Origin: Agromyces sp. ISL-38
GTDB lineage: Bacteria; Actinomycetota; Actinomycetes; Actinomycetales; Microbacteriaceae
DNA: 64,000 nt
Assembly (NCBI RefSeq): GCF_018613935.1
Contig: NZ_JAGGPF010000009.1
Span: 62,001-126,000 of the forward strand
Direction: 5' to 3'
Part shown: piece by piece, positions 26,201 to 54,420 of the stretch
Position numbering within the stretch: position 1 is the stretch's first letter
Layout of the letters: the number at the start of each line of letters is the position of its first letter
Notes under the pieces: generated by a model
Database searches by the model: none
What the model saw: only the letters and a program-made list of their open reading frames with translations
What the model was told of the DNA's origin: nothing
Made by a program: the position numbers and the translations under genes

Positions 26201-26264
26201 AGGACATTGCGAGATTTGGAGGACATCGGCGGGGGCGAACGTCCTCCGAATCGCGCAAAGTCCT
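26201..26264. repeat. 64-bp four-half-site intergenic element, copy A
   Basis: Half-sites: AGGAC at 26201 and 26220, GTCCT at 26241 and 26260, spaced 19, 21 and 19 bp, identical to copies B and C. The whole arms (26194-26227 and 26238-26271) pair at 27 of 34 positions. It lies 71 bp past the ABC-F stop (26335) in a 300-bp gap (26034-26334) that otherwise shows nothing I recognise. Confidence 0.85.
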
Positions 26265-26334
26265 CCGAACCGTGGACGGCCTCGCAGCGACGCGCGGGGC
26301 GGGGCGGGCGCGCCCTGCCGGCCGGCCGGGCGCG

Positions 26335-28113
26335 TTACGTCTTGGCGACCCGTTGCTCCAGCTCCGCACCAGCGCGCTGCCCCGCCTCGAGGGCGAGGCA
26401 CTCCCCCGCCCAGCGGCGGCGCAGCCACCGATCGTGGCTCGCGATCACGACCGCGCCGGGGTAGGCGCCGAGTGCCTCCTCGAGGTCGGTCGCGAGCCCG
26501 AGCGAGAGATGGTTCGTCGGCTCGTCGAGCAGGAACACGTGCGGCGGCCGCGTGATCACGAGCGCGAGCGCGAGCCGGCGCTGCTGCCCCACCGAGAGCG
26601 CGCCGACGGGGCGTCCCTCGTCGCGTGGGGCGATCAGTCCCAGGCTCGCGAGCGTCACCTGCTCGGCGCGCCGCTCACCGAGAACGCGTTCGTAGAGGCG
26701 ACGCGGCGAGGCATCCGGATCGGCGAACCGCACGTCCTGCTCGAGGAGCCCGACTCGCAGCCCCTTTCGCCGGTGCACGGTGCCGCGGTCGACCCTGAGC
26801 GTGCCCGCCAGCGCGCCGAGCAGCGTCGACTTGCCGGCGCCGTTCGCGCCCGTGACGAGCAACCGGGTGAGCGGCGCCACCTGCAGCGCATCGAGTTCGA
26901 GGCGACCGGCGACCGCGACTTCCGAGAGTTGCAGGAGCAGCCCGGATGCCTCCTCGAGCGCGTGCGACCCCGACGGGATGCCCGCGAATTCGAGCGGGGC
27001 CGGCGGCTTGCGCACCTGCTCCCGTTCGAGCGTCTCGAGGCGCAGCTCGGCGTTGCGCACGCGGCGCGAGACCGCCTGATCGACCTTCCCCCGCTTGAAG
27101 TGCTTGAGGTACTTGTCATTGTCGGTCGGCGCGCGGCCGTGCGAGACCTTGCGCGCCGTCTCGACGACGCCGAGGCGAAGTCGCTTCAGCTCCTCCTGTT
27201 CGGCCTCGTACTGCCGTCGCCACCGCTCCTGTTCCTCGGCCTTCACGGTGAGGAACTCACTGAAGCCGCCACCGAAGACGGTGCCTCCGGCTGCCGCCAG
27301 CGCGTCGTCGCGCGTCGCACCACTCGCCCCGCCCGAGCTCGAGAGAGCGAGCGCGCCCGCGCGCCCCGGATCGAGGTCGAGGAGCCCGGTCGCGACCCGA
27401 TCGAGGAACTCCCGATCGTGGCTCGCGAACATCACCGGTCCGCGCCAATCGCGGAGCCGGCCTTCGAGGAAGACCGCGGCGTCGTCGTCGAGATGGTTCG
27501 TCGGCTCGTCGAGCAGGAGCGCGTCGGGAGCCCCGAGCAGCAGCGCCGCGAGCGCGAACCGGCTGCGCTGGCCGCCCGAGAGCTCGCCGATCGCCCGCTC
27601 GAGACCGAGCCCGGCCACGCCCAGCCCCTCGAGCAGCTCGTCGCGCCGCGACTCGGCCGACCACACCTCGGCGCGTTCCGCCGCGTCGAGCGCCGCCGAA
27701 TAGCGATTCGCGGATGCCGCGGACTCGTCGCGTGCGAGCGCGGATGCCGCGGCATCGAGCTCCCGCTCGATGCCGCGCACTTCGGCGAGCGCCGCTTCGA
27801 GCACCTCGCCGACGCGGTCGTGCACGTGGAACGGCAGCTCCTGGGCGAGGAGCCCCGTGCGCCGGGGCCGCGTGATGCTGCCCGAAACGTGGGCGTCGGC
27901 GAAGACGGCGGCGGATGCGGCATCCGCTCGCTCGTCACCGCTCGCGACGAGTCGCAGCAACGTGGACTTGCCCGCGCCGTTCTCGCCGATGAGGCCGAGC
28001 CGGTGGCCCGGTGCGACTGCGAAGGCGAGGTCGGTGAAGATGCGCCGTTCAGGGTAGGAGACCGAGAGTCCGTCGGCACGGAGATGTTGGGAATAGGAGA
28101 CGTGTAGCGCCAT
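26335..28113 (-). CDS. ABC-F family ATPase (ribosome-protection-like)
   Basis: A 592-residue soluble protein with two ABC domains and no membrane part. Domain 1: GENGAGKST (about 43-51), LSGGQRSR, LLLDEPTNHLD. The inter-domain linker has KYLKHFKRGKVDQAVSRR. Domain 2: GANGAGKST, LSVGQQRR, FLLDEPTNHLS. ABC-F proteins bind the ribosomal E site; members displace antibiotics or regulate translation. AAAGGG eight bases before the ATG is buried in a long leader stem, a layout used for antibiotic-induced ABC-F genes, so a resistance role is inferred. Which drug class cannot be told. Confidence 0.9.
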   Translation of the reverse strand: MALHVSYSQHLRADGLSVSYPERRIFTDLAFAVAPGHRLGLIGENGAGKSTLLRLVASGDERADAASAAVFADAHVSGSITRPRRTGLLAQELPFHVHDRVGEVLEAALAEVRGIERELDAAASALARDESAASANRYSAALDAAERAEVWSAESRRDELLEGLGVAGLGLERAIGELSGGQRSRFALAALLLGAPDALLLDEPTNHLDDDAAVFLEGRLRDWRGPVMFASHDREFLDRVATGLLDLDPGRAGALALSSSGGASGATRDDALAAAGGTVFGGGFSEFLTVKAEEQERWRRQYEAEQEELKRLRLGVVETARKVSHGRAPTDNDKYLKHFKRGKVDQAVSRRVRNAELRLETLEREQVRKPPAPLEFAGIPSGSHALEEASGLLLQLSEVAVAGRLELDALQVAPLTRLLVTGANGAGKSTLLGALAGTLRVDRGTVHRRKGLRVGLLEQDVRFADPDASPRRLYERVLGERRAEQVTLASLGLIAPRDEGRPVGALSVGQQRRLALALVITRPPHVFLLDEPTNHLSLGLATDLEEALGAYPGAVVIASHDRWLRRRWAGECLALEAGQRAGAELEQRVAKT

Positions 28114-28368
28114 GGGGACGCCCTTTCACGAGTGCTCCCGGGCAGCCGTCGGATGCCGCGGCGCGCGGCTGTGACGGACGATGCACCGAGCGGCACGACC
28201 GCGGCACCAGCGGCGCCGACGACTGCCCGGGAGCGGAGAGTGGATCCCGCCGGGCATTCGCCGTCGTGAAAGGGTGCGCGCGACACTGTCGCGATCAGTG
28301 AAAAGAGCACACCCTGCAGTCAACGGCGCCTCAGGCGCGGGACGATGGGATGTGCTCACTTCATAGCG
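28114..28368 (-). promoter_or_regulatory. Long structured 5' leader of the ABC-F gene (candidate attenuator)
   Basis: Two nested inverted repeats span the leader: CCCTTTCACGA at 28121-28131 pairs perfectly with 28264-28274, and a 19-bp arm at 28134-28152 pairs with 28216-28234 at 18 of 19 positions. On the mRNA the last segment contains AAAGGG, the ABC-F ribosome site, so folding would hide it. A 77-codon frame (GTG 28359 to stop 28126) covers the leader, and a minimal ATG-AAG-TGA sits at 28364, next to the predicted transcript start. Ribosome stalling in the leader could open the site. Confidence 0.65.
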
Positions 28369-28374
28369 GAGTCG

Positions 28375-28404
28375 ACGCTAGCAGAGGTCGCGGCCGGAAG
28401 CCAA
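28375..28404 (-). promoter_or_regulatory. Promoter of the ABC-F gene
   Basis: On the minus strand, TTGGCT (complement of 28399-28404) and TAGCGT (complement of 28375-28380) are separated by 18 bp. The transcript would start near 28367, giving a leader of about 255 bases. Confidence 0.55.
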
Positions 28405-28430
28405 GAACTTTCTCGAGCCACCTACGCTCG

Positions 28431-28520
28431 GGCCTGCTCGCGCCCGCGGCCAGCTCGGGCCTGCTCGCGCCCGCGGCCAGCTCGCGCCGCGCCGCCAGCG
28501 CGCGCCGCGCCGCCAGCGCG
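28431..28520. repeat. Compound G+C-rich minisatellite
   Basis: Two identical 27-bp units (28431-28457, 28458-28484) are followed by two identical 18-bp units (28485-28502, 28503-28520). It lies between the ABC-F promoter and element copy B, in non-coding DNA. The exact identity implies recent duplication. Confidence 0.9.
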
Positions 28521-28531
28521 CGCCGGTTTGT

Positions 28532-28595
28532 AGGACATGTCTCGTTTTGTAGGACATGTGAGCGCGCGCACGTCCTACAAAACGGCCCAAGTCAT
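28532..28595. repeat. 64-bp four-half-site intergenic element, copy B
   Basis: AGGAC at 28532 and 28551, GTCCT at 28572, GTCAT at 28591: the same 19-21-19 spacing as copies A and C. Arms (28525-28558 and 28569-28602) pair at 27 of 34. It begins 46 bp past the malate:quinone oxidoreductase stop (28641). Confidence 0.88.
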
Positions 28596-28640
28596 GCAAA
28601 CCGCATGGCGTTGCGACATGACGCGCGCGTGCCCGACCCG

Positions 28641-30119
28641 CTACGCGGTGAGCTCGAGCAGCTTCGCCGTCTCCGTGAGGGAGGCCTCGGCGACGCCGGG
28701 ATCGGCCGACAGCTGGCGACCGAAGCTCGGGATCATCTCTCGCAGCTTCGGCTCCCAGCTGAGGAAGCGGTCGGGGAAGCAACGTGCGAGCACGTCGAGC
28801 ATGATCGGCGCGGCCGTGGACGCACCCGGCGAAGCCCCGAGGAGCCCGGCGATCGTGCCGTCGGCACCTGAGATGAGCTCGGTGCCGAACTGCAGCACAC
28901 CGCCCTTCTCAGGATCCTTCTTCATGACCTGCACGCGTTGGCCGGCGGTGATGAGCTCCCAGTCGCGGTCTTTCGCGGTCGGCATGAACTCACGCAGGGC
29001 GGCCATCTTCTTCTGGCGCGAGGCGAGCAGCTCGGAGACGAGGTACTTCACGAGGTCGAAGTTCTTGAGGCCGACCTGCAGCATCGGGCCGAGGTTGTGC
29101 AGGCGGATCGAGAACGGCAGGTCGAACCACGTGCTCGACTTCAGGAACTTCGGCGTGAAGCCGGCGTAGGGGCCGAAGAGGAGCGCGGTCTCGCCCTCGA
29201 CCACTCGGGTGTCGAGGTGCGGCACCGACATCGGCGGAGCACCGACCGCGGCCTTGCCGTAGACCTTGGCCTGGTGCTGGGCCACGACCTTCGGGTTCGT
29301 GGTGCGGAGGAACTGACCCGAGATCGGGAAACCGCCGAAGCCCTTGATCTCGGGGATGCCGGAGTGCTGGAGCAGTGCGAGCGCACCACCGCCCGCGCCG
29401 ACGAACACGAACCTGGCGTACGTGATCTTCGGCGTCTGGCCCACGAGGTGCCGCACGCGGAGCTTCCACCTGCCGTCTTTCTGGCGCTTGAGCCAGGTGA
29501 CCTGGTGGTTCGTCTGCACCGACGCGCCGCGACGCTCCATGTCGGCGAGGAGGTACTTCGTGAGCGCACCGAAGTCGACGTCGGTGCCAGAGGCAACACG
29601 GGTCGCGGCGACCTTCTGCTTGAGGTTGCGCTTCTTCGCGAGGAGTGGGGTCCACTGGGCGATGCGCTCGAGGTCTTCGGTGTACTCCATGTCGGGGAAC
29701 AGCGGCTCGTTCCGCAGCGCCTCGACGCGCTTCTTCAGGTACTCGATGTTCGCCTTGCCCTTGACGAACGTCATGTGGGGCGTCGAGTTGATGAAGTTGT
29801 GCGGCTCGGGCAGCGCCCCGGTCGAGACTAGGTACGCCCAGTATTGCCGGCTGATCTGGAACTGCTCGTTGATCGACACGGCCTTGGCAGCGCTCACCGT
29901 GCCGTCGGGGGCCTCGGGCATGTAGTTCAGCTCGCAGAGCGCGGCGTGGCCCGTGCCGGCGTTGTTCCAGGCGTTCGAGCTCTCTTGGGCCACCTCGCCC
30001 AGGCGCTCGTAGACGCGGATGCTCCAGTCGGGCTGCAGTTGCGAGATGAGGGAACCGAGCGTGGCACTCATGATGCCACCACCGATGAGCACGACGTCGA
30101 CGGATTCCTCTGAAGTCAC
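28641..30119 (-). CDS. mqo: Malate:quinone oxidoreductase
   Basis: A 492-residue FAD enzyme that oxidises L-malate to oxaloacetate and passes electrons to the membrane quinone pool. It begins TSEESVDVVLIGGGIMSATLG (FAD-binding GXGXXS-type loop) and has the family segments ERLGEVAQESSNAWNNAGTGHAALCELNY and FVGAGGGALALLQHSGIPE. The start is GTG 30119; TAGACT lies 7 bases upstream and there is no good Shine-Dalgarno, so the mRNA may be leaderless. The open frame extends further upstream, but only the part after 30119 resembles the family. Confidence 0.95.
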   Translation of the reverse strand: MTSEESVDVVLIGGGIMSATLGSLISQLQPDWSIRVYERLGEVAQESSNAWNNAGTGHAALCELNYMPEAPDGTVSAAKAVSINEQFQISRQYWAYLVSTGALPEPHNFINSTPHMTFVKGKANIEYLKKRVEALRNEPLFPDMEYTEDLERIAQWTPLLAKKRNLKQKVAATRVASGTDVDFGALTKYLLADMERRGASVQTNHQVTWLKRQKDGRWKLRVRHLVGQTPKITYARFVFVGAGGGALALLQHSGIPEIKGFGGFPISGQFLRTTNPKVVAQHQAKVYGKAAVGAPPMSVPHLDTRVVEGETALLFGPYAGFTPKFLKSSTWFDLPFSIRLHNLGPMLQVGLKNFDLVKYLVSELLASRQKKMAALREFMPTAKDRDWELITAGQRVQVMKKDPEKGGVLQFGTELISGADGTIAGLLGASPGASTAAPIMLDVLARCFPDRFLSWEPKLREMIPSFGRQLSADPGVAEASLTETAKLLELTA

Positions 30120-51769: not shown

Positions 51770-52961
<1,192 letters not shown>

Positions 52962-53041: not shown

Positions 53042-53560
53042 TCAGCGGCCGGTGCCGGCGTGCACGACCGCGTCGTCTTCGCCGTCGAGGTCGAACGCCG
53101 TGTGCACGGCGCGCGCGGCGGCGTGCACGCTGTCGGCGCGCGTGACGACCGAGATGCGGATCTCGCTCGTCGAGATCATCTCGATGTTGATGCCCGCTTC
53201 GTAGAGCGCCTCGAACAGTCGCGCCGAGACGCCCGCTGCCGAGCGCATGGCGGCGCCGACGAGCGAGACCTTGCCGATCTGGTCGTCGTACTGCAACGAG
53301 GTGAAGCCCACGGCTTCTTGCGCGCTCGAGAGCGCGGTGAGCGCCCGCTGCCCATCGGTCTTCGGCAGGGTGAACGAGATGTCGGTGCGCCCCGTGGAGG
53401 CGGCGGAGACATTCTGCACGATCATGTCGACGTTCGCGTTCGTGTTGGCGACGATCTTGAAGATCTTGGCGGCGACGCCGGGCACGTCGGGCACGCCGAC
53501 GATCGTGATCTTGGCCTCGGTGAGGTCGACCGCGACACCGGCGATGACGGACTCTTCCAC
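53042..53560 (-). CDS. Aspartate kinase beta subunit from internal start
   Basis: Inside lysC, GAAGGAG lies 5 bases before an in-frame GTG at 53560, giving a 172-residue regulatory subunit starting [16 protein letters not shown], close to the LysC beta start of Corynebacterium glutamicum (MEEAVLTGVA). It consists of the ACT domains and would form an alpha2-beta2 complex. Confidence 0.75.
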
Positions 53561-54316
53561 AGTTTCTCCTTCGGGAAGACGCGAGGGGTCGTAGACGATC
53601 GTTCCCTCGCTGTTGTTGAACGACGAACGCACGTGCAGGGTCACGCCGTGCCGGCGAGCGAACTCGACCGCCCTGATGTGCAAGACCTTGGCTCCGGATG
53701 CCGCGAGCTCGAGCATCTCCTCGCTCGTGATGCGGTCGAGCTTGCGGGCCTTCTTCACCACGCGCGGGTCGGACGTGAACACGCCGTCGACATCAGTGTA
53801 GATCTCGCAGATGTCGGCTTCCAGGGCTGCCGCGAGCGCCACCGCCGTGGTGTCGCTGCCGCCGCGGCCGAGGGTCGTGATGTCGCGCGTGTCGCGGTTG
53901 AAGCCCTGGAAGCCGGCGACGATGACGATGGCGCCGTCGTCGAGCGCCTCGCGGAGCCGAACCGGGGTGACGTCGACGATGCGGGCGGCGCCGTGCGTGG
54001 CATCCGTGATCATGCCGGCCTGGCTGCCCGTGAACGAACGCGCCTCATGGCCCATGCTCTTGATCGCCATCGCGAGCAGCGCCATGGAGATGCGCTCCCC
54101 CGCAGAGAGCAGCATGTCGAGCTCACGTGGTGCCGGGATCGGCGTGACCTCATTCGCGAGATCGAGCAGCTCGTCGGTCGTGTCGCCCATCGCAGAGACG
54201 GCCACGACGACGTCGTTGCCCGCCTTGCGAGTCTCGACGATGCGCTTGGCGACCCGCTTGATGCTCTCGGCGTCGGCGACAGACGATCCGCCGTATTTCT
54301 GCACGATCAAGCTCAC
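53042..54316 (-). CDS. lysC: Aspartate kinase, alpha subunit
   Basis: A 424-residue aspartokinase phosphorylating aspartate, first step of the diaminopimelate/lysine and threonine pathways. GTG 54316 has GGGAG 6-10 bases upstream; a -10 TATGAT (complement of 54363-54368) is about 50 bases before it. It begins [21 protein letters not shown] (kinase motif KYGG); [11 protein letters not shown] and [16 protein letters not shown] are active-site segments; two ACT domains occupy the last 170 residues and should give Lys/Thr feedback control. The length and internal start at 53560 match the Corynebacterium alpha-beta type. Confidence 0.95.
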
Positions 54317-54420
54317 GTGGTCTCCCAGGGTGATTGCCGGCGCCGTCGCGCCCGGAGACCTAATCATACGGCGACGCGTATACGTGCCCGGCAATGTGAC
54401 GGCGGCGGTAGAGTGCGCTC

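Follow-up and report, generated by a model that had tools for sequence, protein, structure and literature searches.

Repetitive extragenic palindromic (REP) repeats prefer the 3' ends of genes. Together with the RAYT proteins (TnpA-REP) they form the closest described parallel to the system treated here: the palindromes (REPs and REPINs) are non-coding, dispersed and variable between species, and in 'REPtrons' they flank the gene of the enzyme (PMC3733652). We analysed a stretch of 64,000 nt from Agromyces sp. ISL-38 (contig NZ_JAGGPF010000009.1, positions 62,001 to 126,000; hereafter the window), which contains three copies of a four-box palindromic element. On balance these elements are probably REP-like dispersed palindromic repeats that form the non-coding half of a two-part system, together with a DUF559 nuclease gene. 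As in REPtrons, the gene of the putative enzyme, here DUF559, is flanked by the repeats. The enzyme of REP/RAYT systems is an HUH/Y1 transposase, whereas here it is a predicted Vsr-like nuclease with an AbiEi-like half. REP repeats are 20-40 bp long and carry a GTAG foot; here four boxes lie in a palindrome of ~64-88 bp, and no GTAG-type foot was found, the boxes varying between species and both sides being complementary. A RAYT/REP system with a Y1 transposase was rejected, as PF01797 was found in 0 of 30 genomes, while the same search was positive in 5 of 14 control genomes. Because the Y1 transposase is absent and the enzyme unrelated, the system would work like REP/RAYT and yet not be a member of it.

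The nearest solved nuclease fold is that of I-Bth0305I, an EDxHD homing endonuclease that binds a target of nearly 60 bp as a dimer (PMC3943268), which fits a four-box site of 64 bp. Here, however, the gene stands free between host genes, target-like copies are many and dispersed, and the protein has an AbiEi-like half. The same nuclease fold occurs in Vsr and in VsrA of Caulobacter, which holds a DUF559 domain; these are discussed as mismatch-repair nucleases tied to cytosine methylation (PMC12907096), and the main text there nowhere uses the word stem 'palindrom'. MTES_1575 is introduced elsewhere as a Vsr-type nuclease domain of a Microbacterium protein which has two winged helices besides (PMC3710099). 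The other half resembles the AbiEi antitoxins of type IV toxin-antitoxin systems, both by Pfam (AbiEi_4) and by fold, but here it is fused to a nuclease. In the open-licence literature, a scope outside which most subscription journals fall, we found no report of DUF559 or Vsr-like genes linked to flanking palindromes, nor any of the element, which a first-pass annotation of the window had already taken to be undescribed. The agreement of the dispersed repeats with those next to the gene of a predicted DNA-cutting enzyme suggests a selfish-DNA system that is, as far as we could find, undescribed.

Architecture and distribution of the four-box element

The window belongs to a draft genome of 3.72 Mb (G000; other G and L numbers denote compared genomes and loci). 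The first-pass annotation had placed three copies in it, and all three lie where it put them, each with the order AGGAC, AGGAC, GTCCT, GTC(C/A)T and with 19, 21 and 19 bp from one box start to the next:

26201..26264, no strand assigned: element copy A, boxes 26201-26205 and 26220-26224 (AGGAC), 26241-26245 and 26260-26264 (GTCCT)
28532..28595, no strand assigned: element copy B, box starts 28532, 28551, 28572 and 28591, final box GTCAT
52898..52961, no strand assigned: element copy C, box starts 52898, 52917, 52938 and 52957, in the lysC/asd interval
26335..28113, minus strand: ABC-ATPase gene, called by codon score, 3' end towards copy A
28641..30119, minus strand: mqo (malate:quinone oxidoreductase), 3' end towards copy B
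53042..54367, minus strand: lysC (aspartate kinase), identified by Pfam domains, 3' end towards copy C
51770..52843, minus strand: asd (aspartate-semialdehyde dehydrogenase), downstream of copy C

Copy A has a palindrome score of 30 out of 38, the top value in the window. The inverted repeat of copy B spans 28524-28603 (score 27/38), and the arms of copy C pair less well than those of A and B. The copies indeed lie past stop codons, at 70, 45 and 80 bp beyond those called for the ABC-ATPase, mqo and lysC genes, respectively.

The pattern is also far more frequent in the genome than its reversed control: when up to three mismatches were allowed, the first-pass pattern matched 11 distinct places in G000, each with 0-1 mismatch, against one match for the control. 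A covariance model built from these 11 copies re-finds all of them and adds a twelfth (C11:357118), which gives a total of 12 places; three weak model matches (E 0.003, 0.9 and 0.9) were left uncounted. The four-site element is therefore confirmed as real, and it is a member of a scattered palindromic-repeat family. Each element consists of four copies of a ~12-bp box, two as direct repeats 19 bp apart and then two in inverse orientation, around a loop of 14-17 nt. The 19-21-19 spacing that had been thought fixed thus holds within the arms (19 bp, in some members 18), and the loop varies. The idea that each position has its own signature, with GACTT in the right outer site and GACAT in the left, fits A, B and C and breaks down beyond the window: among 11 aligned G000 copies the right outer box reads GACTT in four (A, B, C and E) and GACAT in seven.

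With the same model, the layout was found in 12 of 24 other genomes of the genus, and weak matches occurred in 3 of 15 further genomes of the order (E 0.01). A scan of 84,980 genomes with AGGAS-N14-AGGAC-N14..17-GTCCT-N14-STCCT, a pattern that itself fixes the arm spacing, gave at least 115 matching stretches; among the matches listed, 110 were from Microbacteriaceae (Agromyces, Amnibacterium, Microbacterium, Plantibacter, Naasia, Leifsonia, Mycetocola, Cryobacterium and further members), four from Arthrobacter and one from a Bacillota metagenome-assembled genome. The family placement was looked up for four of these genera and, for some of the others, shown by the tree. Lengths of 124 copies were 63 nt in 82, 64 nt in 24, 65 nt in 11 and 62 nt in seven. 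Spacing was checked independently of the pattern: four-box arrays beside the partner genes described below peak at a lag of 19 (18 in some), and 60 of 64 covariance-model matches are 90-93 nt long. The other four (L063, L076, L099 and L102; 74-87 nt) are of odd length and doubtful, and were kept among the 199 elements used below; L099 and L219 are one and the same place.

The element is at once a box array and a long palindrome. In the 124 copies, which were picked by their boxes and not by spacer pairing, observed Watson-Crick pairs exceeded the expectation from column composition 1.88- and 2.01-fold in the box extensions, 1.65-fold in the spacers, 1.31-fold in the loop and 1.41-fold in the flank from -7 to -12, and the ratio fell to 1.01-1.08 beyond -12. 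For 9 of the 11 copies in G000, all but C and G, the minimum-energy RNA fold is a symmetric hairpin. The earlier preference for a protein-binding site over a hairpin is thus borne out in part: boxes at a fixed spacing of about two helical turns, common within a genome while spacers differ, suggest a sequence-specific DNA-binding protein, but spacers and near flanks pair as well, and a case against a hairpin is not supported. In G004 the copied unit stops sharply at the palindrome, the mean pairwise identity of 15 copies being 0.66-0.94 in the arms, 0.42 in the loop and 0.32-0.41 outside; sharp ends of this kind are also a trait of REP/RAYT. A recent copying event is seen in one pair of G000 copies (L008 2062-2125 and L009 2062-2125): they lie 12 kb from each other, are inverted and share 94% identity, and their flanks are unrelated.

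Species-specific boxes and linkage to DUF559 genes

The core AGGA(C/G) is widely common to the elements, whereas the preceding ~6 bp are species-specific, so that boxes are alike within a genome and unlike between genomes. The box is TTTGTAGGAC in G000 and in Agromyces sp. Marseille-P2726, GTTTACAGGAC in A. italicus, GGGAACAC with GGGAGGAC in G004, TGTAGGGGA in G005 and TCCAGCAGGAC in Amnibacterium setariae; G004 and G005 each have a second element family. Since the median pairwise identity among the 11 G000 copies is 67%, recent copying alone does not explain the sharing of boxes in this genome.

The same divergence is seen at a single orthologous site. An element lies between lysC and asd in G000, G019, G014 (A. 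terreus), G012 (A. lapidis), G011, G009, A. italicus and Marseille-P2726, with differing boxes. By eye, decayed-looking remains are present in G007, G008, G013, G002, G003 and perhaps G005 and G004. There is no space for an element in G001, G006, G010 and G015, nor in G026, G030 and G032 of other families (53-96 bp between the lysC and asd protein alignments, ~70 bp of asd included). G028 gave no lysC match, and among G016-G024 the survey covered G019. The G019 copy (L106 3067-3130) is nearly identical to copy C, with flanking proteins 98-99.5% identical to those of the window, and no other copy of the window's element family was found in G019 at E 0.01; transfer of this segment is possible.

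The elements are linked to a gene. At the acs-RidA locus of A. humatus, A. italicus and Marseille-P2726, a gene X between acs and RidA is flanked by elements on both sides. It is 63-65% identical between A. humatus and Marseille-P2726, against 88% for the neighbouring genes, and in A. italicus, where the neighbours are 87-95% identical, it is shorter, with about residues 114-224 missing in one frame. The proteins of A. humatus, Marseille-P2726 and G005 exceed the Pfam cut-off for DUF559 (the match to MTES_1575 stays below its cut-off). AbiEi_4 is above cut-off in L229 and L155 (the G004 and M. galbinum members), below it in L148 and was not found in L118. None of six proteins gave an NCBIfam match over cut-off.

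A hidden Markov model (HMM) of the partner proteins was run on the reading frames of 184 loci (1.37 Mb: L006-L013, L049-L223 and the window), with pieces of one open frame counted once. It found 10 DUF559 genes (L052, L078, L103, L115, L118, L148, L155, L173, L179 and L209), all of which lie within 163 bp of an element, although nearly all of these loci had been chosen for an element, which raises adjacency. Five of them (L052, L115, L118, L173 and L179) are flanked on both sides, and no DUF559 gene away from elements was found by this search in the 184 loci. L173 is the partner of A. humatus and L179 that of Marseille-P2726; others are from Microbacterium, Cryobacterium and Arthrobacter. The partner genes are set among host genes, and the elements adjoin them.

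The boxes beside these genes match those dispersed in the same genome. When 13 gene-flanking elements were scored with box matrices of 16 genomes, built without the gene-flanking copies, the own genome ranked first in 10 cases and second in three; the scoring did not include the M. galbinum, C. lactosi and Arthrobacter partners, and G017 had no matrix. The G000 matrix was second best for both elements of the Marseille-P2726 partner, which makes that protein the nearest intact partner seen for G000.

The DUF559 protein and its relatives

An AlphaFold2 model from five aligned homologues (mean predicted local distance difference test score 78.7, predicted template modelling score 0.73) was compared with known structures by VIA-align on Foldseek candidates. 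Residues 189-287 match the catalytic domain of I-Bth0305I (3r3p_A) with Z 12.9 over 96 residues (root mean square deviation 2.3), and the nuclease half further matches Neisseria NGO0050 (Z 11.7) and the E. coli Vsr-DNA complex (Z 10.3). Residues 48-183 match the AbiEi antitoxin at a middling Z of 7.5, as Foldseek's first match (E 1.3e-4), and residues 1-50 match small winged-helix or DNA-binding chains (Z about 5). A profile search of PDB sequences gave 3hrl (4e-4) and 3r3p (0.03). The partner is thus predicted to be an AbiEi-like winged-helix half fused to a nuclease half of the Vsr/EDxHD type. In the alignment, E192 and D218 are conserved in 95 of 95 rows, D244 in 94 and D230 in 83 (18 of 18 in the clade described below), and we infer catalytic roles for them. 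The column of residue 228 of L173, likely an active-site position, holds Q in all 18 clade members and E in all 77 others.

DUF559 (PF04480) was found in 37 of 40 genomes searched, and many of its genes have repeats in their flanks. A repeat shared by the two 600-bp flanks (score of at least 20) was found for 56 of 104 DUF559 genes, against 6 of 406 control genes, which were of comparable size and came from the element loci (p 1e-38). The six, none of them DUF559 by HMM, all lie within 600 bp of an element belonging to their genome; without element neighbours the control is 0 of 261, an omission that favours our reading. A smaller control gave 1 of 16 genes at score 20, a sample that is too small. 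Palindromes on both sides (score of at least 24) separate less well, with 35 of 104 DUF559 genes against 20 of 406 control genes. Of 108 DUF559 places listed, 105 were scored (L301 has no called gene; L225 and L283 were unscored), and 104 were used since L232 equals L280. Gene ends came from a codon-score script which mis-called some DUF559 genes (e.g. L284, L293 and L327) and thereby shifted their flank windows. Four of the six repeat-flanked control genes were inspected and are ordinary by translation; their repeats on both sides have scores of 46-70 (L221 4527-5264, L186 3933-4733, L152 3029-3796 and L068 3260-4111).

The palindromes vary from one DUF559 gene to another, and other DUF559 clades behave alike. 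In G032, a genome of another family, the gene-flanking palindrome occurs at 21 places with 20 inverted pairs (reversed control 0), and in G019 at four places, three of them as pairs and two beside the gene. In other families of the order, 5 of 12 records (11 genes) reach score 20; L233, L243, L244, L278 and L281 are other-family DUF559 genes with strong repeats in both flanks.

The four-box arrangement itself belongs mainly to one clade. A protein tree of 95 rows, after three duplicates were dropped, was labelled from a partial scan plus named loci, and 11 of 12 four-box genes together with both labelled weak fall into a single group of 18 (support 100/96); the twelfth, the long-branched L209 of Arthrobacter, lies outside it. 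When all 95 were scored alike, at one threshold derived from shuffled flanks, 15 of the 18 clade members and 19 of the 77 others had an array on one or both sides (p 6e-6), and nine clade members and three others had one on both. Many of the 19 non-clade arrays look like GC-rich or simple repeats. The best arrays in the flanks of the clade members L227 and L103, and of L240 below the threshold, have a box spacing of 18 bp instead of 19.

Explanations compared

How might such a pair work? The winged-helix part would read the box, that is, the core AGGA with ~6 species-specific bp, and a dimer or tetramer would occupy the four boxes of the ~64-bp palindrome, or of a one-strand hairpin. The nuclease domain would nick or cut at the element, and repair or copying would spread the ~70-bp unit. 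The boxes of a genome's copies would stay in step as the specificity of the protein drifts, and copies would persist where they are least harmful, just past the 3' ends of genes. Binding, cutting and the resulting spread are inferred. We are evenly divided over a broader claim, namely that fast-evolving winged-helix/Vsr-like nucleases (DUF559), many with dispersed palindromic targets of their own which are spread and homogenised in trans by cutting, form an unrecognised class of selfish or domesticated DNA: a non-homologous counterpart of RAYT/REP in several families of the Micrococcales, in which specificity and target 'dialect' co-evolve.

The position of the elements could also imply that they are bidirectional terminators or mRNA 3'-end hairpins, with the palindrome acting in the transcript where converging or tandem genes end. 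Of the 199 elements, 183 have well-scored neighbours on both sides, and 79 of these lie in convergent, 93 in tandem and 11 in divergent intervals. The tandem ones are a median of 39 bp from the upstream stop and 96 bp from the downstream start, 74 of the 93 being nearer the stop. On the transcribed strand of the tandem copies, G-U pairs modestly exceed A-C mismatches (234 against 187; p 0.025 binomial, 0.011 Wilcoxon), which may leave room for a role at the RNA level. However, no T-rich tract follows the element (T fraction 0.11-0.14 in the next 40 bp, both directions pooled), and a simple intrinsic terminator was therefore rejected. Only 12 copies were found in 3.7 Mb, a terminator requires neither box identity nor a 19-bp spacing, and the pairs around DUF559 genes would be left unexplained; we consider this reading unlikely. 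In line with the protein-binding site favoured by the first-pass annotation, the elements could instead be operator or insulator sites of a chromosomal DNA-binding regulator that has nothing to do with the DUF559 protein. The four boxes, spaced by nearly two turns, agree with such sites, and so do the differing boxes at the orthologous lysC-asd site, but the copies lie past stop codons and not in promoters, and a gene for a winged-helix protein adjoins them in several genera with boxes that fit its own genome. This seems improbable to a similar degree.

Miniature inverted-repeat transposable elements (MITEs) of an ordinary DDE transposon, with the DUF559 gene as a chance passenger, would agree with discrete ~70-bp units in unrelated flanks and with the 94% identical inverted pair in G000. 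Still, all 18 exact half-element matches in G000 belong to full copies, and of 13 halves with one mismatch 8 lie outside full copies (reversed control 12), which is noise level. A parent transposon was rejected for G000, the genome searched, as free half-elements are not above noise. Although six ordinary genes are repeat-flanked as well, DUF559 is the gene that recurs, and an origin as MITEs appears highly improbable.

Several observations weigh against a DUF559 nuclease and its elements as the two halves of one system. Among the 13 gene-flanking elements, three fit the matrix of another genome better. The five DUF559 loci read in G000 include no partner whose boxes match, and none was found for the boxes dispersed in G007 and G024 or for the second family in either G004 or G005; G011 has only a sub-threshold array (36 against 38), with the right box. 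A. italicus keeps many copies despite its shortened gene. A shared flank repeat of score 20 is missing from 48 of 104 DUF559 genes, and a few of the 15 clade arrays, such as L265 and the right-hand one of L242, resemble simple or GC-rich repeats. The change from E to Q near the active site could mean weakened cutting, and no clean empty site was shown, nor a target-site duplication, for which no systematic test was made. That sites are kept across species suggests a slow turnover; in that case a change of boxes in place would need either selection on recognition or conversion between copies. In G000, finally, the acs-RidA site falls at contig ends, with acs ending C17 and RidA beginning C1.

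The copies in G000 may be relics, as a matching partner gene was not found. Neither the 246 bases of C1 ahead of RidA nor the 124 bases of C17 that follow acs contain an element. Both contig ends (L346 end; L344 1-240) carry the same GC-rich hairpin (CGGATGCCGCGGCCGGGAGTGATCCCGCCGCGGCATCCG), and C1 starts with tandem repeats of the GGGGCTTCGCGCTGC kind; the hairpin and the repeats likely mark an assembly break at the expected partner locus. On C6 of G000, a DUF559 gene lies between palindromes (L284 117-185 and about 1390-1457) with the box CTGCAGGAGAT / GCGCAGGAGAT, by eye unlike the family of the window.

If the two-part reading is right, it provides a second, independent REP/RAYT-like arrangement with an unrelated enzyme, and ideas on how small repeat populations are carried in genomes could be compared between the two. 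For DUF559, which Pfam lists as 'of unknown function', it offers a genomic setting and a substrate that can be tested. Box 'dialect' and protein vary in pairs, which makes them natural material for studying the evolution of nuclease specificity, and each species offers a ready protein-target pair for a bench assay.

Other identities were considered and rejected. Phage carriage was dropped after the exact four-box pattern gave 0 matches in viral contigs and the partner protein one weak match among phage records. A defence-system membership was dropped since PADLOC gave nothing beyond weak AbiEi and homing-endonuclease matches, and a known RNA family since the window had no Rfam match at gathering score. 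Among plasmids the partner protein has two matches, both in Tsukamurella (NZ_LR134468.1 53022-53807 and NZ_LR134454.1 56230-57024), which are annotated as AbiEi family antitoxins. Lastly, just ahead of copy B the window contains a perfect 27-bp tandem duplication and four 18-bp near-repeats of the CGCGGCCAGCTCGCGCCG type (28426-28525).

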